From positions 3,224,001 through 3,288,000 of the forward strand of contig NZ_JAGSHX010000006.1 in assembly GCF_018138715.1 (NCBI RefSeq): a stretch of DNA of 64,000 nt. Direction: 5' to 3'. Origin of the DNA: Streptomyces asiaticus. GTDB taxonomy: Bacteria > Actinomycetota > Actinomycetes > Streptomycetales > Streptomycetaceae. Shown in pieces: positions 47,666-58,209 of this stretch. The translations under genes and the position numbers were made by a program. The notes beneath the pieces are model-generated. The model had not been told where the DNA came from. It saw only the letters and a program-made list of their open reading frames with translations, and ran no database searches. Numbering within the stretch: position 1 is the stretch's first letter; the number at the start of each line of letters is the position of its first letter.

Positions 47666-48139
47666 TCAGTCCCGGGTAGCCCCCTCCGGCCAGATCACCC
47701 GAGACCGGACACCGGTGCGCTCGGCGTAGGCCACGACATCGGCCGTGCCGCCGTATCCGCGGGCCGGCTGCCCGTCCCACACAGCGACCAACTCGTCCAC
47801 CAGACCCACCAGGATCTCGCTTCCGGCCATGTGCGCCTGGGAGTCCGACTCCGCCATGCCCGTGCGGTGGATGTCGGCGGCCCGCTGGATGAGACGGTCA
47901 TAGGTCGGGTGGTGCTCCTCCGGCAGGCCCTCGCGGTACTTCTCCGCAGGGACCACCACTTCAAGGCGACCACCAGCCTCCAGCACCAGCTCGGCGAACC
48001 AGGCGTCCGGGCCGTCGGCGATGCACGAGACCCCGATCAGGTCAGGACCGTAGCGCGCAAGTTCGTCACGAAGGGCCCGGCGGACCAATCGCTCCGTCTC
48101 CGGGGGAAGACCGCGGTGGCCGGTGATGCCGAGGCGCAT
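47666..48139 (-). CDS. SLOG-like Rossmann-fold nucleotide-binding protein
   Basis: A 157-residue protein beginning MRLGITGHRGLPPETERLV, then GVSCIADGPDAWFAELVLEA and GRLEVVVPAEKY, and later DELVAVWDGQPARGYGGTAD. This layout (GITGHR start, GADxxA-like middle, VxWDG-xGGTxD end) matches YspA/SLOG proteins related to DprA and LOG, proposed to bind nucleotide-derived ligands. It starts an accessory island and is divergent from the XRE regulator gene. The exact ligand is unknown. Confidence 0.75.
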   Translation of the reverse strand: MRLGITGHRGLPPETERLVRRALRDELARYGPDLIGVSCIADGPDAWFAELVLEAGGRLEVVVPAEKYREGLPEEHHPTYDRLIQRAADIHRTGMAESDSQAHMAGSEILVGLVDELVAVWDGQPARGYGGTADVVAYAERTGVRSRVIWPEGATRD

Positions 48140-48397
48140 GGGCCGCTCCTTTCGTGATCACAGGTAGATGCCTCGCAGTCGGTCGTCGAACTCGCGGACA
48201 ACCCTGAGCGGAGTCGTCGAAGTGTAGGACCGCCGGACCGCACGGGCACGCTCGATGATCCGGCCTGACCGGTACCGTGCCCCTGTCTCAAGTGCTTGCC
48301 CGGCCAAAGCGAACGCACCATCACGAAGGCCCCCAACCCGGTGGTCAGGGGCCGATCGCTGCAATCCCGTTCGGGCCGGGAGTACCGTCTGAGTGTC

Positions 48398-48417
48398 GAG
48401 TTCAGAACGGAGTTCAG
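48398..48417 (+). promoter_or_regulatory. GAGTTCAG direct repeat at the XRE regulator start
   Basis: GAGTTCAG occurs at 48398-48405 and 48410-48417, a 12-bp period, immediately before the ATG at 48419 and overlapping the GGAG ribosome site. A candidate autoregulatory site. Confidence 0.45.
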
Positions 48418-48418
48418 T

Positions 48419-49612
48419 ATGCACGAAGACACAGGCATTGGCTCCAGCCTCCGCAAGATCCGCAAGCGGCGCGGTCTGACGCAGAGGGAACTGGCCACAG
48501 CATCAGGCGTATCGCTCTCGCTGATCCGGAAGCTGGAACAGGGAGAGATCACCGACACGCGCATGGAGACCGCCCACACGCTGGCCTCCACACTGCGCAT
48601 CCCCACGAGTTACCTCCTGGAGCGCGACGACGAGGAGCCCGCCGGCGAGGCCGCCGAGCCCTGGCGCCCGCTGGGGCAGGCCGTTCAGGTCGCGCCGGTC
48701 CGCACAGGCGAGGCCCCGACGGTGGAGGGCGTGCGTGCGATGCTCACCGAGGTGCGCTCGGCCTACTTCGACAACCGGCTCGGTGAGTTGACCGGGCTCC
48801 TTGCCCCGCTTCTGGCGGATGCCGACGCGCTCGGTGACTCCGCTGAGGCCCGGGACGTGCGCTCCCATCTGCTACAGATCGCCGGATCGGTGCTGACCCA
48901 GGTCCGCCAGTACGGTGCCGCGGAGACCGCGCTGCGCCGCGCCCTGGATGACGCACCGGACCGGCTGCGCGCGGCGGGGATCATCGCTACCTGGAGCTGG
49001 CTCCTCGTCCGGCAAGGCAAGTTGGCAGCGTCCCGGGAAATGGCCACCAAGTGGGCGGACGATGTGGAGCCGCGAGTGTCCCGGGCGACGCCGGAGGAGT
49101 TGGCGGCGTGGGGCTGGCTGCTGATGCAGTCTTCAGCCGCCGCTCTGCGCGACAACCGACGGGGGGAGGCGGACGACATGATGTGCCTCGCCCAGTCAGT
49201 CTCCGTCCTGCTGGGGCGTGAGTTGCCCCGCGGCACTGAGCGCCTGACGACCTGGGGCCCGACCACTGTGCGTTATAAGGCGTGCGAGAGGCACATCGTG
49301 CTGGACGAGCCGGACAAGGTGCTCCGCGCGGCCAAGCCGAAGCGGTCCGGCCGGGCCACGGCTAGGAGGTCCGGCGGTCTGGCGCTGAGCACCGAGTACC
49401 ACCGGCACCGGCTGGACGTCGCGAAGGCTCACACCATGATGCGGCAGTACCCGGAGGCTGTAGACGTACTGACCAGCGTGCACGCCACCGCGCCGGAGTG
49501 GCTGGCCAGTCAGCGATACGCGCGCGACATCCTCGGCGATGTGGTGGAGAAGCGGCGGACGTTGACGCCGGAGATGCGGACGCTGGCGGACGCGGTCAGT
49601 CTGCCGCTGTAA
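48419..49612 (+). CDS. XRE-family regulator with TPR-like C-terminal domain
   Basis: A 397-residue regulator. The N-terminal Cro/C1-type HTH (about residues 8-62) reads LRKIRKRRGLTQRELATASG, then VSLSLIRKLEQGEI. The C-terminal 300 residues are helical and TPR-like (YGAAETALRRALDDAPDRL, later YPEAVDVLTSVH), as in peptide- or protein-sensing RRNPP-like and actinobacterial accessory regulators. Start ATG 48419 with GGAG 8 nt upstream; upstream in-frame sequence is not conserved-looking. It likely controls the next operon. Confidence 0.88.
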   Translation: MHEDTGIGSSLRKIRKRRGLTQRELATASGVSLSLIRKLEQGEITDTRMETAHTLASTLRIPTSYLLERDDEEPAGEAAEPWRPLGQAVQVAPVRTGEAPTVEGVRAMLTEVRSAYFDNRLGELTGLLAPLLADADALGDSAEARDVRSHLLQIAGSVLTQVRQYGAAETALRRALDDAPDRLRAAGIIATWSWLLVRQGKLAASREMATKWADDVEPRVSRATPEELAAWGWLLMQSSAAALRDNRRGEADDMMCLAQSVSVLLGRELPRGTERLTTWGPTTVRYKACERHIVLDEPDKVLRAAKPKRSGRATARRSGGLALSTEYHRHRLDVAKAHTMMRQYPEAVDVLTSVHATAPEWLASQRYARDILGDVVEKRRTLTPEMRTLADAVSLPL

Positions 49613-49614
49613 CG

Positions 49615-49658
49615 CTCAATGGCACTTCCGTCGGCGGCCCGCTGGAAGTGCCATTGAG
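49615..49658 (+). terminator. Hairpin downstream of the XRE regulator gene
   Basis: CTCAATGGCACTTCC / GGAAGTGCCATTGAG, a perfect 15-bp inverted repeat with a 14-nt spacer, directly after the stop codon. Less GC-rich than the other terminators here and without a T tract, so an operator role is possible. Confidence 0.65.
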
Positions 49659-49682
49659 TGACCCCCGTCACCACACTTAGCG

Positions 49683-49725
49683 TCACGACACGGATACAAA
49701 TCGGCCACGAGGAGCCGTGTCGTGA
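49683..49725 (+). promoter_or_regulatory. 11-bp inverted repeat spanning the start codon of the 49.7 kb operon
   Basis: TCACGACACGG (49683-49693) and CCGTGTCGTGA (49715-49725) are perfect inverted copies. The right arm includes the GTG start codon at 49722. Between them lie a -10-like TACAAAT (49695-49701) and the Shine-Dalgarno GAGGAG. It could be a repressor operator for the adjacent XRE protein or, if transcription starts earlier, a start-sequestering hairpin. Confidence 0.6.
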
Positions 49726-50330
49726 TCGCTGATCCACAGCCAGCGCTGCCCTGGACACCGCCGAACAGTCAGGACATCGAGGCATTACCCGCAGGCAGAT
49801 GGTGGGACGCCGTGCGCGCAGCCCCGACCATCGGCGAACGCGCCCTGCAACTGCTCGGTGACGAGACCGGCGCCGTCATCCAGGACAAGCACGGCCCTCT
49901 CTACTGGCTCGTCTCCGTCGGCACCGCAACGAGCCGGCACCTGCGGCAAGTCCGCGTCCTCACCGAGCTGACCGACGAGAGCACCTACCTCGGCGTACCG
50001 CCCGCCTCTTGGACGAAGGGGCCCCGCACCCACTGGCGCGTGCCCCTCTCGGCCGACCACTGCCTCACCGACGCCTGGTGCCTGTGGGAGGCGCTGGCCG
50101 AGGCCGACCGGGCCGAGTACGGACGCAGGCCCGAGGGACGCCAACTCTGCTACCACTGCAAGCTGCCCACCGACGAGCCCATCCCGGTCGACGTGGAGGA
50201 CACGGGGAGCGACGTCGGCAAGGTCACCTACGCCTGCCCCACGCACGCCACCGGCTACCCGAGGAGCGGCCGCCGCCCGCGGACCCTCACCAGCGCGGCC
50301 ACGGACCAGCACAAGGGGCGGGCCCGATGA
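49722..50330 (+). CDS. Conserved actinobacterial hypothetical protein with Cys-rich segment
   Basis: A 202-residue soluble protein with no family I can name. The N-terminal half (about residues 18-120) is predicted mixed alpha/beta with a GPLYWLVSVGTA core. The C-terminal part has CYHCKLPTDEPI and a later YACPTHATGYP, which together form a likely zinc site. GTG start 49722 with GAGGAG 8 nt upstream. It overlaps the next small gene by ATGA and is the first gene of a three-gene operon leading to a methyltransferase. Confidence 0.7.
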   Translation: MIADPQPALPWTPPNSQDIEALPAGRWWDAVRAAPTIGERALQLLGDETGAVIQDKHGPLYWLVSVGTATSRHLRQVRVLTELTDESTYLGVPPASWTKGPRTHWRVPLSADHCLTDAWCLWEALAEADRAEYGRRPEGRQLCYHCKLPTDEPIPVDVEDTGSDVGKVTYACPTHATGYPRSGRRPRTLTSAATDQHKGRAR

Positions 50331-50509
50331 CGCACGTCGAGCAGACCAAGGACCCGTTCGCCAACGAGGCGTGGCGCGCGGCCATCGACCACGCCGCGGG
50401 GTGCCAGGCCTGCCGCACACCCGGCGCCAGATGTGAGACCGGGGAGCGGCTGCTACGCGCCTACGAGGAGGCTACGCGGCTTTCTCGATCTGAGAGTGAT
50501 GCCGGATGA
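50327..50509 (+). CDS. Small Cys-containing hypothetical protein
   Basis: A 60-residue protein, MTHVEQTKDPFANEAW at the N terminus, then HAAGCQACRTPGARCETGER with a CxxC plus a third cysteine, then a helical end. It overlaps the upstream stop (ATGA 50327-50330) and the downstream start (ATGA 50506-50509), so it is translated as part of the operon. It does not look like a canonical graspetide precursor (no long leader plus T/E/D core). Possibly a zinc ribbon-like partner. Confidence 0.65.
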   Translation: MTHVEQTKDPFANEAWRAAIDHAAGCQACRTPGARCETGERLLRAYEEATRLSRSESDAG

Positions 50510-51747
50510 AGCACCGCCGACAACAGTCCGGAAAACCCCTTAGCCGCGTCGATCGCTCAAACCCTGGAGAACTGGTGTCGCCGGTGAACTGGAAACCGCT
50601 CGCTGAGAATCTGGCAAGCATCCTGGAGGGCTCGGACGACCTCGTCTCCCCTCACTGGAAGCAGGCGTTCGAGGAAGTGCCCCGGCATGTCTTCGTCCCA
50701 CGCTATTTTCAGAATCAGGGGGGCGTGCCGACTCGATGGAAGCCACTCGACGCCGCGGACGGCGGAGACTGGCTCAACCCCATCTACACCAACGCCACAC
50801 TCGTCACCCGCTTCGCCCCGGAGACCGCGAAGTCCGCGGATGGGCTGCTCACCGGCGTCCCCACGTCGTCCAGCACACAGCCGAGCCTCACGGCCCGGAT
50901 GCTGGAAGCCCTTGACGTACAGCCTGGAGACCGGGTCCTTGATGGGGGCACCGGCACCGGCTACCAAACCGCCCTCATCGCGCACCGCCTGGAGAGTGAT
51001 GACCAGCTCGTGACGGCGGACATCGACCCGGATGTGACGTCCGAAGCCCTGCTCAACCTGGAGGCCATCGGCATCACACCGAACGTGCTCACCGTGGACG
51101 TGAGGGACTGGACCTGGCCGCCGGAGTCGTTCGACAAGGTGATCATTACGTGTGCCCTCCCCCGGATCACCGAGACATTGAGGTCCACGGTCGCACCCGG
51201 GGGACGACTCGTCGCGAACCTCTTCCCGCCGCTGAGCGGGGGTCTGGCCGTCCTCGATCGCATGCCGGACGGGAACCTGGAGGGGCGCTTCCAGACGGGC
51301 GGCGGGTCCTTCATGGCGGCGCGTACGGCGGCGCCGCCCCCTCCCCCGCCGCCTGCATCAGGACCGGTAGACGCACACGGGGAATCCCGCGTACCGGTCA
51401 CGGCCTTCGACAGCTACCACTTCACCTTCCTGCTGGCGTCCGCGCTGCCCGGGGTGGTGCTCCAGTACGGCACTGACGACGAGGGGCACACCATGCGTCG
51501 CCTGGTGATGCCTGACGGGGCGTGGGCTGAGGGCATCTTCGTCGGCGAACAGACGCAGTTCCGCGAGACAGGCGAGCACGGCATCTGGGACACGGTCGAG
51601 GGCTGGTGGGGGTGGTTCGTTGATCACGATATGCCGAAATGGGATCGCTTCGGCCTGACGGTCTCGGACGAAGAGCATCGCCTCTGGTACGAAACGCCCC
51701 GGGGGCCCCTCGTGGAGACTTCCTGTGTGAGTGAGGCGCGCAACTAA
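50506..51747 (+). CDS. PIMT-like methyltransferase of the ATP-grasp peptide (graspetide) maturation type
   Basis: A 413-residue SAM-dependent methyltransferase. The N-terminal motif EEVPRHVFVPRYF and later SSSTQPSLTARMLEALDVQP, GDRVLDGGTGTGYQTALIAH (SAM-binding loop) and ITCALPRITETL match protein-L-isoaspartate methyltransferase-like enzymes that modify graspetides. The C-terminal domain (about 270-405) has FTFLLASALPG, VWGT-like and WGWFVDHDMPKWDRFGLTV. No ATP-grasp ligase or precursor gene is present here. The last residues (LVETSCVSEARN) look atypical, and the stop overlaps the ATG of a truncated tnpB, so the 3' end may have been altered by insertion. Confidence 0.82.
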   Translation: MKHRRQQSGKPLSRVDRSNPGELVSPVNWKPLAENLASILEGSDDLVSPHWKQAFEEVPRHVFVPRYFQNQGGVPTRWKPLDAADGGDWLNPIYTNATLVTRFAPETAKSADGLLTGVPTSSSTQPSLTARMLEALDVQPGDRVLDGGTGTGYQTALIAHRLESDDQLVTADIDPDVTSEALLNLEAIGITPNVLTVDVRDWTWPPESFDKVIITCALPRITETLRSTVAPGGRLVANLFPPLSGGLAVLDRMPDGNLEGRFQTGGGSFMAARTAAPPPPPPPASGPVDAHGESRVPVTAFDSYHFTFLLASALPGVVLQYGTDDEGHTMRRLVMPDGAWAEGIFVGEQTQFRETGEHGIWDTVEGWWGWFVDHDMPKWDRFGLTVSDEEHRLWYETPRGPLVETSCVSEARN

Positions 51748-52625
51748 TGCACGACGGGGCCCCTCCCGGCAGGGACCTGGACGCCGCGTACCGGAACTTC
51801 TTCGACGGGCTGAAGGGCAAGCGCCCGCGCATGGGCGCGCCCCGGTTCAAGTCCCGCAAGGACAACCGGCAGGGCGTTCGCTTCACCGCGAACGCCCGAT
51901 GGAAGATCACCGCCGGCGGGGACCTGTCCTTGCCGAAGATCGGGGACGTGCGGGTGAAGTGGTCCCGCGGCCTTCCCTCGGTCCCCTCCACGGTGACCGT
52001 GATCAAGGACGCTGCCGGAAGGTACTTCGCGAGCTTCGTTGTGGAGACCGAGCCCGTCACCTCGGCCGAGAGCGACAGGGCCGTCGGCATCGACCTGGGG
52101 CTGGGGCATTTCGCCGTCTTGTCCGACGGCACGAAGATCGACGCTCCTCGCTTCCTGCGCCGGGCCGAGAAGAAGCTCAAGCGCGCACAGCAGGCCCTCA
52201 GCCGCAAGGCGAAGGGCTCGAACAACCGGAACAAGGCCCGCATCAAGGTCGCCCGCGCTCACGCGCAGGTGGCCGACGCACGGCGCGAGTTCCACCACCA
52301 GCTCTCCACCCGGCTGATCCGCGATAACCAAGCGGTCGCGGTGGAAGACCTGGCGGTGAAGGGGCTCGCCCGTACGCGCCTGGCCAAGTCCGTGCACGAT
52401 GCTGGATGGTCCGCGTTCGTGACGATGCTGGCGTACAAGGCCGCGAAGTTCGGCCGCGGCTTCCACCGCATCGGACGGTTCGAGCCGACCTCCCAGGTCT
52501 GCTCGCGGTGCGGCGTCAAGGACGGCCCCAAGCCCCTGCACATCCGAGTGTGGGAATGCCGGGCCTGCGGAGCCGTCCTCGACCGGGACATCAACGCGGC
52601 GGTCAACGTCGCCAAGGCCGCCTGA
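51747..52625 (+). pseudogene. tnpB: tnpB (IS605 OrfB-like RNA-guided nuclease), 5'-truncated
   Basis: A 292-residue open frame in which the TnpB sequence starts abruptly at about residue 10 (RDLDAAYRNFFDGLKGKRPR). The first 70-80 residues of a normal TnpB, including the usual N-terminal region, are missing. The RuvC catalytic residues are intact: Asp in VGIDLGLGHFAV, Glu in VAVEDLAVKGL, Asp in GAVLDRDINAAVNV. The zinc site is intact (CSRCGVKD, then CRACG). No tnpA is present. The ATG overlaps the stop of the upstream methyltransferase (TAATG). Either a decaying remnant or, less likely, a shortened functional form. Confidence 0.88.
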
Positions 52626-52760
52626 CTGGCGGTGTCAGCCTGTCGAGCGCAGGTAAGACCGGTACTCGTACCGGCCCAGCGCGGTGAAGCAGGAACCCAC
52701 CGAGACGGTCAGCCGACCGTGGCAGGAATCCCCGACCTTAGGCCGGGGAGCGGAAGTCAA
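52600..52760 (+). ncRNA. tnpB right end / omegaRNA scaffold
   Basis: Downstream of and overlapping the tnpB stop is a hairpin-rich tract: CTGAC/GTCAG (52622-52637), CCGGTAC-TC-GTACCGG (52659-52674), CGGTC/GACCG (52706-52719). It finishes with the typical IS605 right-end stem GGAATCCCCGACC-TTA-GGCCGGGG and then AGCGGAAGTCAA (ends 52760). In TnpB systems this tract is the omegaRNA scaffold; the guide would be the flank from 52761. Exact 5' end not determinable. Confidence 0.75.
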
Positions 52761-53587
52761 AGCACCAGCCTCCGGTACCGGTCGGCGACCTCCGCCAGGA
52801 CCTCCGCGCCGTCCCGGGCCCACAGGTCCGGATTGAAGATCTCCACCTCGATCGGGCCGGTGTAGCCCGTCGCGTCGACCTGCTCGCGGAACCAGCGGAA
52901 GTCCACCGAGCCGTCGCCGAGTTGGCCCCGGCCCAGCAGGACGCCTTCGGGGAGTGGCGTGACCCAGTCGGCGAGTTGGAAGGCGGCGATGCGGCCGCTC
53001 GCGCCCGCGCGGGCGATCTGGGCCGCCACGGTGTCGTCCCACCACAGGTGGTACGTGTCCACGACCACGCCCACCTGCTCCGCCGGGAAGCGCTCGGCCA
53101 GATCGAGGGCCTGGGCGAGGGTGGAGACCACGCAGCGGTCGGACGCGTACATGGGGTGCAGGGGCTCGATGGCCAGGCGGACGCCGTGGTCGGCGGCGTA
53201 CGGGGCGAGCTCTCCCAGCGCGTCGGCGATGCGCTCGCGGGCGGCGAAGAGGTCGCGGCTGCCGGGCGGGAGACCGCCGGAGACCAGGACCAGGGTGTCG
53301 GTGCCCAGGGTGGCGGCCTCGTCGATGGCCCGGCGGTTGTCGGCCAGGGCCGTGGCGCGCGCCTCGGGCTCGCTCGCGGTGAAGAAGCCGCCCCGGCACA
53401 GGCTGGTGACGCTCAGGCCCGCGTTCCGCACCAGCTCGGCGGCCGCCGCCACGCCGTACTTCTGGACCGGTTCGCGCCACAGGCCCACGCCCGGGACGCC
53501 CGCCTTGACGCAGCCCTCCGCCAGCTCGGGCAGCGACCACTGCTTGATCGTTTCCTGGTTGAGGCTCAGCCGGGACAAGGCGCTCAT
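52757..53587 (-). CDS. Sugar phosphate isomerase/epimerase family TIM-barrel protein
   Basis: A 276-residue xylose-isomerase-like barrel. MSALSRLSLNQETIKQWSL at the N terminus, then GVGLWREPVQKYG; metal-ligand candidates are Glu in LAIEPLHPMY, Asp/His in VVDTYHLWWDD, and Glu in GPIEVEIFNP. It is the last gene of a three-gene operon (Gfo/Idh, DUF993, this). The start overlaps the DUF993 stop (ATGA 53584-53587). Its stop codon TGA (52757-52759) lies inside the right end of the convergent tnpB element, so the natural C terminus may have been changed by that insertion. Confidence 0.88.
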   Translation of the reverse strand: MSALSRLSLNQETIKQWSLPELAEGCVKAGVPGVGLWREPVQKYGVAAAAELVRNAGLSVTSLCRGGFFTASEPEARATALADNRRAIDEAATLGTDTLVLVSGGLPPGSRDLFAARERIADALGELAPYAADHGVRLAIEPLHPMYASDRCVVSTLAQALDLAERFPAEQVGVVVDTYHLWWDDTVAAQIARAGASGRIAAFQLADWVTPLPEGVLLGRGQLGDGSVDFRWFREQVDATGYTGPIEVEIFNPDLWARDGAEVLAEVADRYRRLVL

Positions 53588-54753
53588 CGGGCCACTCCGT
53601 ACACGGACAGCAGGTGTTTCATACGCGATTCCGCCAGCACCGGGTCCGGGAACAGGCCCAGCCCGTCCGCCAGTTCGTACGCCCGCGCCAGATGCGGCAG
53701 CGAACGGGCCGACTGGAGGCCGCCGACCATGGTGAAGTGCGACTGGTGGCCCGCCAGCCAGGCCAGCAGCACCACGCCCGTCTTGTAGTAGCGGGTCGGG
53801 GTCTGGAAGAGGTGGCGGGAGAGTTCCACCGTCGGGTCCAGAAGGGCGCGGAAGGCGGCCACATCGCCGGTGTCCAGCCTGCGCACGGCCTCCGCCGCCA
53901 GCGGGCCCAGCGGGTCGAAGATGCCGAGCAGGGCGTGGCTGAAGCCCCGGTCGTCGCCCGCGATCAGCTCGGGGTAGTTGAAGTCGTCGCCCGTGTAGCA
54001 GCGCACCCCGTCCGGCAGCTTGCGCCGCAGGTCGATCTCGCGCTGGGCGTCCAGCAGCGAGACCTTGATGCCGTCGACCTTGTCGGGGTGGGCGGCGATG
54101 ACGTCGAGGAAGGTACGGGTGGCGGCGTCCAGGTCGGTGCTGCCCCAGTAGCCCTCCAGGGCCGGGTCGAACATCGGGCCGAGCCAGTGCAGGATCACCG
54201 GCTCGGCGGACTGGCGCAGCAGATGGCCGTAGACCTCGAGGTAGTCCTCGGGGCCCTTGGCCACGGCGCACAGGGCGCGCGAGGCCATCAGGATGGCCTG
54301 GGCGCCGGACTCCTCGCAGACGGCCAGCTGCTCCTCGTACGCCGCCCGGACCTCGTCCAGGCCGTACGGATAGCCGATCTCGGTGGCGGACAGCTGGTCG
54401 GTGCCGACGCCGCAGGCGATCCGGCCGCCGACCGCCTTCGCCTCGGCCGCCGAGCGGCGGATCAGCTCGGCGGCGCCCGCCCAGTCCAGGCCCATACCGC
54501 GCTGGGCGGTGTCCATGGCCTCGGCCACGCCCAGTCCGTGGGACCACAGGTGGCGGCGGAAGGCCAGGGTGGCGTCCCAGTCCACGGCGGCCGGGCCGTC
54601 GGGGGTCACATCGGCGTACGGGTCGGCCACGACATGGGCGGCCGAGAAGACGACGCGGGAGGTGAAGGGGGCCCCGGGGGCCGGCGACAGCGGCTCGGTG
54701 CGGGGTTCGTAGGGGCGGGTCGTACCGCCCGGCGCGGGAAGGTGGATGGTCAC
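53584..54753 (-). CDS. DUF993 family protein (dihydrodipicolinate synthase-like aldolase fold)
   Basis: A 389-residue protein of the DUF993 family, a TIM barrel related to DHDPS/NAL aldolases. Family features are FTSRVVFSAAHVVADPYADV, GLGVAEAMDTAQRGMGLDW, ILHWLGPMFDPALEGYWG and KVDGIKVSLLDAQREIDLR, the lysine of which may be the Schiff-base residue. It is commonly next to a Gfo/Idh dehydrogenase and a sugar isomerase in actinomycetes, suggesting a retro-aldol step on a keto-sugar acid. GTG start 54753 lies in the first copy of a 38-bp tandem duplication. Confidence 0.88.
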   Translation of the reverse strand: MTIHLPAPGGTTRPYEPRTEPLSPAPGAPFTSRVVFSAAHVVADPYADVTPDGPAAVDWDATLAFRRHLWSHGLGVAEAMDTAQRGMGLDWAGAAELIRRSAAEAKAVGGRIACGVGTDQLSATEIGYPYGLDEVRAAYEEQLAVCEESGAQAILMASRALCAVAKGPEDYLEVYGHLLRQSAEPVILHWLGPMFDPALEGYWGSTDLDAATRTFLDVIAAHPDKVDGIKVSLLDAQREIDLRRKLPDGVRCYTGDDFNYPELIAGDDRGFSHALLGIFDPLGPLAAEAVRRLDTGDVAAFRALLDPTVELSRHLFQTPTRYYKTGVVLLAWLAGHQSHFTMVGGLQSARSLPHLARAYELADGLGLFPDPVLAESRMKHLLSVYGVAR

Positions 54754-54823
54754 AGGCTCGGCTCCGGTACGTCCAGGCGGTGGAGGGTCACAGGCTCAGC
54801 TCCGGTACGTCCAGCCGGCGGCC
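54748..54823 (-). repeat. 38-bp tandem duplication at a gene junction
   Basis: Two copies (54748-54785 and 54786-54823) differ at only a few positions; both contain the block GGTCACAGGCTC and CTCCGGTACGTCCAG. On the minus strand the inner copy carries the stop of the Gfo/Idh gene. The outer copy carries the GTG start of DUF993 in the identical CTGTGACC context. Confidence 0.9.
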
Positions 54824-55948
54824 CTCCGCCGACGACTTCAGGCCCAGCTCGGCGAGCTGGACGCCGCGCGCGCCGGCCAGCAGGTCCCAGCGCCAGGGCT
54901 CGTCGAGCGCGACATGGCGCAGGAAGAGCTCCCACTGCGCCTTGAAGCCATTGTCGAACTCCTCGTTGTCCGGCACCTGCTGCCACTGGTCGCGGAACGC
55001 CTCGGTGGCGGGCAGATCGGGGTTCCAGACCGGCTTGGGGGTGTGCGAGCGGTGCTGGACGCGGCAGTTGCGCAGGCCCGCGACGGCGGAGCCCTCGGTG
55101 CCGTCCACCTGGAACTCCACCAGCTCGTCGCGGTTCACCCGGACCGCCCAGGAGGAGTTGATCTGGGCGATGACACCGCCCTCGAGCTGGAAGACGCCGT
55201 AGGCCGAGTCGTCGGCGGTGGCCTCGTACGGCTTGCCGCGCTCGTCCCAGCGGGTCGGGATGTGGGTGGCGGCCTGCGCCTGGACGGTGCGCACGGGGCC
55301 GAACAGCTCGTGCAGCACATACTCCCAGTGCGGGAACATGTCGGAGACGATGCCGCCGCCGTCCTCGGCGCGGTAGTTCCAGGAGGGCCGCTGGGCGGCC
55401 TGCCAGTCGCCCTCGAAGACCCAGTAGCCGAACTCCCCGCGTACGGAAAGGATTCTGCCGAAGAAGCCGCCGTCGATGAGGCGCTTCAGCTTCAGCAGCC
55501 CCGGCAGGAAGATCTTGTCCTGGACCACCCCGTGCTTGACGCCCGCCGCCTCGGCGAGCCGGGCCAGCTCCAGGGCGCCCTCCAGACCAGTGGCGGTCGG
55601 CTTCTCGGTGTAGATGTGCTTGCCCGCCGCGATGGCCTTCCTTATGGCCTCCTCGCGGGCGGCGGTGACCTGCGCGTCGAAGTAGATGTCGACGCCGTCG
55701 TCCGCGAGCACGGCGTCCAGGTCGGTTGAGACGTCCGCGACCGGGTCGAGGCCGTGGTGCTCGGCGATCTCCTTGAGCGCGTGCTCCCGGCGGCCGACGA
55801 GCAGCGGCTCGGGCCACAGCACGGTGCCGTCGCCGAGGTCCAGGCCGCCCTGTTCACGAAGGGCGAGGAGAGAGCGGACGAGGTGCTGGCGGTAGCCCAT
55901 CCGGCCGGTCACACCGTTCATGGCGATCCGCACTGTCTTGCGTGTCAC
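54788..55948 (-). CDS. Gfo/Idh/MocA family oxidoreductase
   Basis: A 386-residue NAD(P)-dependent dehydrogenase, first gene of a sugar-catabolic operon. It begins VTRKTVRIAMNGVTGRMGY with the nucleotide-binding loop; catalytic Lys in HIYTEKPTATGLEGALELA; then QDKIFLPGLLKLKRL and DMFPHWEYVLHELFG. Start GTG 55948 has GAAGGAGACC immediately upstream; longer in-frame starts run into the inserted non-coding element and are rejected. Substrate unknown. Confidence 0.9.
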   Translation of the reverse strand: MTRKTVRIAMNGVTGRMGYRQHLVRSLLALREQGGLDLGDGTVLWPEPLLVGRREHALKEIAEHHGLDPVADVSTDLDAVLADDGVDIYFDAQVTAAREEAIRKAIAAGKHIYTEKPTATGLEGALELARLAEAAGVKHGVVQDKIFLPGLLKLKRLIDGGFFGRILSVRGEFGYWVFEGDWQAAQRPSWNYRAEDGGGIVSDMFPHWEYVLHELFGPVRTVQAQAATHIPTRWDERGKPYEATADDSAYGVFQLEGGVIAQINSSWAVRVNRDELVEFQVDGTEGSAVAGLRNCRVQHRSHTPKPVWNPDLPATEAFRDQWQQVPDNEEFDNGFKAQWELFLRHVALDEPWRWDLLAGARGVQLAELGLKSSAEGRRLDVPELSL

Positions 55949-55965
55949 CTGGTCTCCTTCGAAGA

Positions 55966-56264
55966 TGCCCCCGCCTTCAGGCGGAGGAGGAATCGAAACC
56001 CCTGCGGAGCGGGGCAAGGAACGGGAATTCGCCTCTAGGGGCGAAATTCCCCCATACGATCGGGTAAGGTGCGTGTCGTGCGTCGCGAGAACCAAGCACG
56101 CACAACGTGCTGAGCGAGAACCAAGCCAGCGCAACCTCATGCTTTCGGGCAACCGGGCAGGTTCCGTCCCGGCTGGCGCTGAGGGAGTAAGTCCTTGTCG
56201 GTCGCTGACTTGCGGGGCTTCCTAAGCCAGGAATCCCCCTGCTTCAGCTGGGGGGAGGGTTCAA
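55966..56264 (+). mobile_element. Non-coding IS200/IS605-like element (MITE/PATE-like) with omegaRNA-like right end
   Basis: The left side begins with hairpin CCGCC-TTCA-GGCGG (55971-55984), followed by GAATTCGCC/GGGGCGAAATTC-type stems. The right side ends CAGGAATCCCCCTGC-TTCA-GCTGGGGG, then AGGGTTCAA (ends 56264). The right end closely parallels the tnpB element at 52.73-52.76 kb: shared CAGGAATCCCC, stem, terminal TCAA. About 300 bp and no open frame of note. Inside is an omegaRNA-scaffold-like tract (about 56150-56240) and a 13-bp direct repeat GCGAGAACCAAGC (56085, 56114). Orientation as drawn is plus, antisense to the operon leader. Confidence 0.75.
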
Positions 56265-56290
56265 GTGGGTTCTTCTCCTCACGAGTTACA

Positions 56291-56302
56291 GTAAGCGCTT
56301 TC
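56291..56302. promoter_or_regulatory. LacI-family-type operator of the Gfo/Idh operon
   Basis: GTAAGCGCTTTC contains the palindrome AAGCGCTT with central CG and the extended form GAAAGCGCTTAC on the minus strand, typical of LacI-family sugar regulators. A purine-rich GAGGAGAAG follows downstream on the minus strand. No lacI gene is adjacent in the window. Confidence 0.65.
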
Positions 56303-56376
56303 TAAGGTTCACGCTAACCGCCCCGCCCCATCCCTGTACAGAGGACCGAACACAGGGGGCGGAGGTGGTCAGCGCT

Positions 56377-58209
56377 TCAACGCAGGGTCAGCCGGTAGCG
56401 CAGCGGCGAACGCCCGGTGATCAGGACCCGCTGCCCCGCCGGAGTCAGATCACCGCCCATCCAGCTGTAGCGCTCGCCGGAGTCCACGACGGCGGGCTGG
56501 CGCGGGCCGCTGCCGTTGCCGGGCCCGAAGGTGATCACATCATCGCCGGACGCATAGGTCCCGTACCCCTTGACCAGCTGATACGTGTCCTTCTGACCGG
56601 GCACGGGGTCGACCCCGGTCAGCTTTCCGCCGCCGCGGAAGCACAGCTCGAGGGCGAGCGGGACCGCGGACTCGCCGATCTCGAGGTCCAGGTTCCAGCC
56701 GCCGTCCGCCTCCGCGATCCGCACCTCGGTGCGCAGGGTGCGCCACTCCTTGGGGCGGTGCGGAAAGTCCATCGCGGACCAGAACCGGCCGTCGTCGGTC
56801 AGCGGATACCGCCCGTCGGGGCGGCGGTGCTGCGGCGGCAGCGGAAGGTGGAAACCGGCCCGCACCTCGGCCCACAGCCGCCAGCCGTCCGCCGTGCGCT
56901 CCACGTCCTCGGCCCGGAAGTGGCCGAGCGAGAAGAACTGCGGGGACAGCCGGAGCGAGTCGAGGACGGCCGTGCCCTTGCGCCACTTGAAGAACGTCGG
57001 GTTGGTGGACAGACCCGAGGAGATCGCGTGGACGTCGGGGAAGTCGGTGCCGCCGAAGATCGTGGTCCGCGTCCTCCCCCTGGCGATCCGGACCAGCCCG
57101 CAGTCCTTGTCGTGCCAGGTGAACTCCGTCGGAGTCGCCGTGGCATCGGGCAGCGGCGCGGCCAGCTCCGGATGGTCCAGCACCTCGGCGAGGAAGTCCC
57201 CGAGCGGGGTCTCGTCGAAGGTCTGGTCCGCCCCGCGCCGCTGGATGGTGGCGGCCACGTCCGCGAACCGGCCGTCCCGCTCCCGGAGCGCCAGGGCCCG
57301 GAACTGCATCCAGTACTCGGACAGATGCTTGACCGTCTTCTGGTCCTGGCGGCGCGAGTGCACCGTCTCCACCTCCCCGTCGGGCTCCAGGAGGTGGAGG
57401 GTGGCGTCCAGGTTGCGGCGTACGTGCGCGTGGAGGGCCGGGCGCTCGGTGAGCCGGGCCAGGGTCAGCAGCGAGGGGTTGGTGACGATGGGCGCGTAGG
57501 TGGCGCTGCGCTCGCTGTACTGGCCGCTGTCGTACCTGTCGACGCCCTCGGCCAGCCAGGCGTCGATACGGCGGGTGTAGCGGGCGTCGGGCCAGAAGGA
57601 GTTGATCCGGGCCAGCGCGGCGCACACCTTCCAGCGGTGGTTGGGGGTGTGCACCCCGCCGGTGGAAAGGCCCTTGCCCGCCTTGAGCAGGATCCTCTTC
57701 AGAGTGGCGCGGATCGCCCGGGTGCCGGTGTGGCCGTCCGCGTCCAGCAGGCCGTACACCAGCCCCAGATCGACGATCGAGAAGGCGGTGTCCGGGGGCG
57801 AGTGGACGGCGCCCTGGTCGTAGAGGCCGTCGTCGAACTGTGCGGCGGCCAGCGCGTCCACGAGCCGGGTCATCGGCGCGATGAGCGCGCCGTCGTGGTG
57901 GTGGGCGGCGTCGCCCCACACATGGACGGAGGTGAGCAGCCGCAGGCCACGGGCGGCGGGGCGGGCCTGGCCGAGGTTGTTCAGCTGGCCCAGGACCGTC
58001 TCGAGCCCGTCCACCACCTCGGCCACCCGGGCGTCGGCCGCCTCGGTGAGCAGGGCCAGGAACGGTTTGTCGACCCGGCCCCCGGCCGGGCCCCGGCCCT
58101 CGGCCGAGGCCCGATCCTCGGCCGAGGCGTCGCCCGGGGCGCCGACGGCCAGCAGTCCGCCCGCCGCGGCGGTCCCGGCGAGCAGGTGACGGCGGGGCAG
58201 GGGTGTCAT
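56377..58209 (-). CDS. Tat-exported protein, putative polysaccharide-active alpha/alpha-barrel enzyme
   Basis: A 610-residue protein with a Tat-like signal (PLPRRHLLAGTAAAGGLLAV; the second Arg context is RRHLL). The first half of the mature region is helical and barrel-like (TPNHRWKVCAALARINSFWP, then YSERSATYAPIVTNPSLLTL and HSRRQDQKTVKHLSEYWMQF). The second half is beta-rich (TIFGGTDFPDVHAISSGLS, later YSWMGGDLTPAGQRVLITG). The arrangement recalls polysaccharide lyases and heparinase-like enzymes, but no family signature is certain. Co-operonic with an oligosaccharide ABC transporter, so it probably acts on an extracellular glycan or glycan fragment. Confidence 0.7.
   Translation of the reverse strand: MTPLPRRHLLAGTAAAGGLLAVGAPGDASAEDRASAEGRGPAGGRVDKPFLALLTEAADARVAEVVDGLETVLGQLNNLGQARPAARGLRLLTSVHVWGDAAHHHDGALIAPMTRLVDALAAAQFDDGLYDQGAVHSPPDTAFSIVDLGLVYGLLDADGHTGTRAIRATLKRILLKAGKGLSTGGVHTPNHRWKVCAALARINSFWPDARYTRRIDAWLAEGVDRYDSGQYSERSATYAPIVTNPSLLTLARLTERPALHAHVRRNLDATLHLLEPDGEVETVHSRRQDQKTVKHLSEYWMQFRALALRERDGRFADVAATIQRRGADQTFDETPLGDFLAEVLDHPELAAPLPDATATPTEFTWHDKDCGLVRIARGRTRTTIFGGTDFPDVHAISSGLSTNPTFFKWRKGTAVLDSLRLSPQFFSLGHFRAEDVERTADGWRLWAEVRAGFHLPLPPQHRRPDGRYPLTDDGRFWSAMDFPHRPKEWRTLRTEVRIAEADGGWNLDLEIGESAVPLALELCFRGGGKLTGVDPVPGQKDTYQLVKGYGTYASGDDVITFGPGNGSGPRQPAVVDSGERYSWMGGDLTPAGQRVLITGRSPLRYRLTLR

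Follow-up and report, generated by a model that had tools for sequence, protein, structure and literature searches.

A protein-less IS200/IS605-type element with a predicted omegaRNA-like gene and a Shine-Dalgarno motif in its left end abuts the start codon of a Gfo/Idh/MocA oxidoreductase gene

Organization of the locus

In the window, by which we mean the whole 64,000-nucleotide stretch of Streptomyces asiaticus DNA that was analyzed, a Gfo/Idh/MocA oxidoreductase gene begins directly beside a short element, and the following features were assigned.

54788-55948, minus strand: Gfo/Idh/MocA oxidoreductase gene, GTG start at 55948-55946; Pfam PF01408, PF22725, PF02894
55945-55948, plus strand: target and predicted TAM TCAC, complementary to GTGA, in which one further base follows the GTG start; TCAC or TCAT stands at most readable left ends of relatives
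55949-56264, plus strand: the complete 316-bp non-autonomous element of IS200/IS605 type; without it, the alleles L191/L192 read ...GTGTCAC, junction, GTGGGTTCTTCTCC...
55954-55960, minus strand: left-end Shine-Dalgarno (SD) motif GAAGGAG, 5 nt (ACCAG) before the GTG start, carried by the element
55969-55984, plus strand: left-end hairpin CCCCGCC-TTCA-GGCGG, seen in the sequence; similar in tnpB elements L003 and L004
56065-56070, plus strand: -10-like box TAAGGT, spanning -12 to -7 relative to where the aligned RNA begins
56077-56264, plus strand: predicted omegaRNA-like structured RNA, from alignment and covariation; RNA model R1 gives 160.8 bits for 56106-56264
56078-56103, plus strand: hairpin SL1, loop motif GAGAACCAA; 88.6% of cells paired, both-side change in only 1 of 8 pairs
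56107-56132, plus strand: hairpin SL2, a second copy of the SL1-type hairpin; both-side change in 5 of 8 pairs
56153-56172, plus strand: hairpin CCGGG...CCCGG
56234-56256, plus strand: right-end hairpin, then GGGTTCAA; element end at 56264
56265-56282, plus strand: predicted 18-nt guide, the flank after the right end
56275-56280, minus strand: displaced native SD GAGGAG of the Gfo/Idh gene, beyond the right end of the element
56284-56307, no strand assigned: presumed LacI-type operator region (AGTAAGCGCTTTCT)

The element codes for no protein, and an initial annotation was right in describing an IS605-like sequence here that lacks a transposase, has hairpins at its ends and on the right resembles a tnpB element. 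It is most probably a mobile, protein-less IS200/IS605-type element. NCBIfam matches to the Gfo/Idh gene were weak, with none approaching a cut-off. The region at 56284-56307, which we take to be a LacI-type operator (the name was given in the initial annotation), lies on the far side of the element from the gene, and AAGCGCTT was found at most 450 bases upstream of the Gfo/Idh gene in 30 of 30 orthologous loci, window included. The element had been placed exactly between this operator and the SD of the gene; it does lie between operator and gene, but the SD named as its boundary is inside the element. That the element abuts the start codon and brings its own SD had been missed.

Empty alleles and insertion point

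The best-matching 30 loci out of 199 genomes searched, the window counted in, were surveyed for the element, and a locus was called empty when two right-end motifs were absent and native sequence preceded the start. By this definition 28 of the 30 loci (L191-L218) were empty and two, the window and its counterpart in G055, were filled. L191 (genome G149) and L192 (G164) are orthologous leaders with 95% gene identity, both without the element, and on the element strand they read GTGTCAC and then directly GTGGGTTCTTCTCCTCAC, which is the right flank in the window. These alleles give boundaries of 55949-56264 in place of the earlier 55966-56264 and place the insertion immediately before the GTG start of the Gfo/Idh gene, just after the final base of the leader. 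Because the insertion is directly 3' of TCAC, that is, at the start codon GTGA, the native ribosome site is separated from the gene. The anti-SD sequence CCTCC had been considered as a target and was rejected, since the empty alleles place CTCC inside the element and leave TCAC as the target. The native SD before the start codon is GAGGAG in the empty alleles of the nearest relatives and GAAGGG-like in the rest; in filled alleles the left end offers GAAGGAG-ACCAG-GTG and the native SD lies past the right end. That a left end in direct contact with a start codon should contain an SD is, in our view, the most surprising part of this arrangement.

Further copies with variable flanks and further empty sites, both of which the initial annotation had proposed to look for, were found. 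A second full copy in the host genome (L002), 88-89% identical to the window element, precedes a gene with an ABC-transporter permease domain (PF00528), and here too the insertion is at the junction of last leader base and GTG start codon, a position that is empty in the five closest orthologs (L220-L224). Comparison of filled with empty alleles thus gave clean insertion without duplicated bases at two loci; the hairpins are subterminal and terminal inverted repeats are absent. DNA matches to the element were obtained in 68 of the 199 genomes of the genus sample, host genome included, and with the second full copy this puts its presence far beyond chance. The right flanks, which are the predicted guides, differ among unrelated loci, and the insertion at the window locus is common to two species (G000, G055). 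The target was TCAC or TCAT at 52 of 56 left-end sites used, a count to be read with the fact that the scan itself sought TCAY; the others were CCAC in L172, L181 and L182 and TTAC in L188.

Covariation and distribution of the predicted RNA

For RNA structural analysis 42 stand-alone copies picked from the DNA matches were aligned over 200 columns, and the structure tested was that given by RNAalifold with SL1 added, 46 pairs in all. Across the 42 copies 96.0% of cells were paired, with both-side changes in 18 of the 46 pairs. The covariation score was 0.283 against 0.138 ± 0.006 in shuffled alignments and none of 500 shuffles reached any of five measures, although a shuffle test of this kind can be inflated by related copies. 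When the structure was slid by 1-3 columns pairing fell to 38-47%. SL1 is present in 34 of the 42 copies and contributes little covariation, and the CCGGG...CCCGG hairpin shows none because it is nearly invariant. A single-sequence fold was no better than shuffles (z = -0.21) and is uninformative alone. Upstream of the aligned RNA, 25 of the 42 copies have the pattern TANNNT at precisely -12 to -7 and one more has it shifted by one base, against a background of 13 in 3765 places; it is absent in the remaining 16, most of which are close variants by eye. From the covariation and this -10-like box we infer that the right part of the element is a transcribed, stand-alone omegaRNA-like gene, and the earlier proposal of a plus-strand RNA antisense to the operon leader is supported at the level of a predicted RNA.

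The RNA model R1, which was built from stand-alone copies, matched 86 of the 199 genomes of the genus sample (host genome included) and 32 of 394 genomes drawn from the class, 16 of the 32 being outside the genus. Its scores form two groups, and 91 of 92 sources were matched (L097 was not). At 125 bits or more there were 62 loci checked for tnpB, none with 150 aa of it: one is a deletion derivative (L164), four have weak C-terminal tnpB similarity and 57 have none. Below 122 bits there were 29 loci, of which 24 carry at least 150 aa of tnpB and two about 130 aa, while three carry none; lower-scoring R1 matches are not always tnpB-linked, L165, L174 and L077 being examples to the contrary. At the 24 loci R1 matches the 3' end of tnpB together with the right end, so that the claim of an omegaRNA-like 3' part is supported by a model made from stand-alone copies. 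Copies of at least 125 bits, counted by eye, occupy 64 places in 31 of the 199 same-genus genomes (62 of the 64 being those checked for tnpB) and occur also in three genomes of another family, one of them with seven. An Rfam search over 48000-58000 of the window gave no match over the element, and its single match at E ≤ 1 lies elsewhere.

Some stand-alone copies, L286 and L287 among them, have no readable left end and retain the promoter box and the RNA with high model scores; copies of this type could be candidates for domestication.

One alternative is that the element is an ordinary MITE relic, in which the RNA is inert and is conserved because deletion derivatives of tnpB elements have spread recently. 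The host genome gave no match to the Y1 transposase (PF01797), L164 is one clear deletion derivative, truncated left ends are numerous and the covariation could partly be inherited from tnpB-borne ancestors. Against it stand the both-side changes in pairing, which no shuffle equalled and which were sharply lost on sliding, the fixed spacing of the -10-like box, the presence of SL1 in most aligned copies and the 57 stand-alone loci that retain the RNA without any tnpB similarity. We therefore consider an inert relic unlikely; strong covariation of the RNA, together with the constant position of the -10-like box, makes 'just a MITE', the alternative given in the initial annotation, an insufficient description.

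Left ends and gene starts

The left-end scan gave 63 loci, of which seven were dropped (L046 and L105 for want of TCAY; L055, L056, L064 and L068 for altered or lost left ends; L106 as the same place as L051), leaving 56. Group 1 comprises 43 sites with left ends of the window kind. Group 2 is a sister group of 13 sites, 11 of them with at least 150 aa of tnpB, which mostly use the same target and whose left ends finish with CGCAAGAAACAG or similar. Of the 62 stand-alone loci checked for tnpB, just 20 enter these counts, since the left ends of the others are truncated, altered or unreadable. An SD-like motif was present in 41 of 43 group-1 left ends, in all 41 at 4-7 nt from RTG, and was absent in 13 of 13 group-2 left ends.

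A frame was scored as coding when it had 100 open codons with third-position GC of at least 0.85 and 0.2 above the second position. This test was passed by 34 of 43 group-1 sites and 0 of 9 testable group-2 sites (p = 1.3e-5), compared with 180 of 748 RTGA sites in the window and 21 of 60 of those preceded by an SD. With repeated loci removed (the pairs window/L038, L061/L067, L111/L112 and L168/L184, and L052, L053 and L077 as one gene) the figures were 29 of 38 and 0 of 8 (p = 9e-5). Since the genomes are related, all of these p values overstate the significance. L067 and L173, the two group-1 sites without an SD-like motif, both pass the coding test, so that the contrast by SD alone falls to 32 of 41 versus 2 of 11 (p = 5e-4). 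The group-2 site L168 narrowly misses the test (0.84 versus 0.85) and its frame reads into RNase PH, with a likely true start 32 codons further in; when it is scored as coding p becomes 2e-4 with repeats and 1e-3 without. Among frames of at least 60 codons, Pfam domains (E ≤ 0.001) occurred in 22 of 31 from group 1, window excluded, and in 2 of 5 from group 2, namely L170, a transposase piece, and L168; with shorter frames scored as failures the contrast was 23 of 38 versus 2 of 12 (p = 0.018). A look for true starts with an added upstream test gave 17 of 25 for group 1 (both flanks), 0 of 13 for group 2 and 74 of 746 for window sites, the upstream part being inapplicable to four of these group-1 loci and to 12 of the group-2 loci. 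Outside the genus, in another family, 4 of 8 sites passed the thresholds, among them L280, which is doubtful by eye; L279 is without TCAC. L067, L173, L168 and the weaker Pfam contrast count against the reading that we prefer below and leave our estimate of its probability unchanged. The start-codon bias of left ends may reflect survivor bias.

Six loci were inspected by hand: L055, L060 and L066 retain an SD before a coding-like frame, L062 retains one before an open frame of odd codon composition, and L056 and L064 have lost it. In L060, L062 and L066 the left-end hairpin is gone while the SD and the start-codon junction are retained. L055, L056 and L064 are three paralogs in G024; GGAGG is retained in the paralog at a coding start, and the other two have GGAT and GGAAG.

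The SD-like motif might instead be a mere transposase recognition sequence, with left ends that happen to survive at gene starts and no role in translation. The motif is steady in the left end and remains present at each of the 9 group-1 sites, out of 43, where the coding test is failed, and L067 and L173 pass that test without it. We nevertheless judge this explanation improbable: two left-end versions, GAAGGAG at 5 nt and CGGAGG at 6 nt, both hold the SD within 4-7 nt, SD-less sister left ends with the same target gave no coding frame among nine, L060 and L066 (and L062, with its odd codon composition) lost the hairpin but still have the SD and a start codon that opens a reading frame, and among the G024 paralogs, three cases in all, only the coding-start copy keeps GGAGG.

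Two further observations concern left ends. G420, of the other family and with a 6.1 Mb genome, has seven stand-alone copies (L277-L283), all with left ends of the CGGGT(C/T)TC(C/T)TTC type. At L052, L053 and L077 one gene start, of a gene which carries PF01512 (from L052), is occupied in three species by different subfamilies that are mutually 59-77% identical, L052 being 90% identical to another copy in its own genome; the sequences suggest repeated insertion or replacement at one site.

Predicted guide and partner proteins

TnpB is reported to cut at a TAM that equals the TnpA target, with a guide taken from the right flank (PMC8612924, PMC10278001), and TCAC is the measured TAM of AmaTnpB (PMC10278001). 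The predicted guide matches L191 and L192 at 18 of 18 nt beside TCAC, which by analogy would act as the TAM. In the filled allele TCAA, not TCAC, stands beside the guide match, and the predicted complex should therefore not bind or cut its own site. A search of the host genome with TCAY and the 14 initial guide bases gave no second match within two mismatches, and at three mismatches there were 10 places versus 8 in the control; a regulatory guide with targets in trans was rejected on the former result. That G000 and G055 have a conserved guide was set aside as evidence, since sequence on the gene side of the junction is conserved to the same degree.

The host genome has 14 TnpB-type matches, and its tnpB elements that match R1 are L003 (117 bits), L007 (87 bits) and L006 (70-74 bits). 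Residues 36-395 of the 407-residue L003 TnpB align with a solved TnpB, including the zinc ribbon and, at the positions of the three RuvC residues, D, E and D. Of these RuvC residues D191 is named in PMC8612924. TnpB-type matches were present in 8 of 8 genomes queried. Of 199 genomes 66 have a Y1 transposase, the share being 24 of 31 where stand-alone copies occur versus 42 of 168 where they do not (p = 4.5e-8), and, counted by eye, a further lower-scoring R1 match was present in 31 of 31 genomes with stand-alone copies versus any match in 55 of 168 others.

Proposed mode of persistence

The reading that we consider probable is of a parasitic element that does little harm to the host gene because it supplies a substitute ribosome site, and that has an RNA working through TnpB provided in trans. 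TnpA from other elements would have mobilized the element, which, as the empty alleles show, inserted directly 3' of TCAC and split the native SD from the gene. The outward SD of the left end is at proper distance, so that the gene could still be translated, presumably from this SD, in a leader about 316 nt longer that would retain the old promoter and operator. The conserved RNA, if transcribed, would be loaded in trans by TnpB proteins encoded elsewhere in the genome. The guide match in the empty allele lies beside TCAC, so that TnpB would cleave alleles that had lost the element or had never gained it, and the element would be copied back during repair. A guide and TAM that fit the empty allele, a filled allele that is spared and the lack of another close match in the host genome fit retention rather than regulation, and the RNA would thus be a tool of the element and not a regulator of the sugar operon.

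The domesticated RNA-guided regulator that the initial annotation had raised as one possibility, here taken as TldR-like, with the RNA and a TnpB-like protein silencing the sugar operon or another gene, would accord with the strongly conserved RNA structure, the insertion shared by G000 and G055, the high RNA scores of copies with lost left ends and a guide that runs toward the operator, but we hold it to be very unlikely given an element absent from 28 of 30 orthologous leaders, guides that differ between unrelated loci, TCAA at the filled locus and a guide that fits its own empty allele and has no second close match in the host genome.

Whether the retention reading extends to a class of self-effacing selfish RNA genes, protein-less, led to start codons by a TCAY target, replacing the SD and lending a guide RNA to the TnpB nucleases of other elements to hold the site, is in our estimation evenly balanced. 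The titles and abstract openings found in our literature search, which covered a minority of subscription journals and used omegaRNA in Latin letters, describe neither start-codon insertion with a built-in SD nor stand-alone omegaRNA genes. Mobile elements often survive by landing harmlessly; the window element appears to bring the repair for its own damage. An omegaRNA-like gene set apart from TnpB with a promoter-like box would also offer a possible route to trans-acting guides and TldR-like regulators.

Relation to known systems

With tnpB-carrying (peel-and-paste) IS200/IS605 elements the window element shares subterminal hairpins, a short target 5' of the left end, a TCAA right end and lack of target duplication, and in its relatives the guide RNA overlaps the 3' end of tnpB; it differs in having neither tnpA nor tnpB, in a promoter-like box joined directly to the RNA and in the outward SD at a start codon. 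Its RNA resembles TnpB omegaRNA (reRNA) in its homology to the tnpB 3' end and right end, the guide from the right flank and the TCAC TAM as in AmaTnpB, but is predicted to be a unit of its own without tnpB, has a tandem hairpin in most copies and would need TnpB in trans. TldR proteins are RNA-guided repressors with a TnpB-type guide RNA near a promoter, a placement shared here; unlike these systems the window locus has no inactivated TnpB and the guide has no close match in trans in the host genome. PATE- and MITE-type IS200/IS605 derivatives, which are likewise short, protein-less, hairpin-ended and present in many copies, have been described as ends only, while the window element retains a structured RNA gene. 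Free-standing IS605 stem loops are reported in Borrelia (PMC2775950). For IS607 TnpB, guided by a RAGATH-18-derived RNA, the reported TAM, AGGAG, is SD-like (PMC11061315); in the window the SD is inside the element and is not the TAM, and no Rfam family matched over the element.

A neighboring tnpB at 51747-52760 of the window (292 aa), for which no left end was seen, lacks the N-terminal part of the TnpB profile and has a right end reading CAGGAATCCCC...GGAAGTCAA. A weak, sub-threshold match to RAGATH-18 (52639-52695, 24.2 bits, E 0.65) falls in the expected guide-RNA region of this gene.
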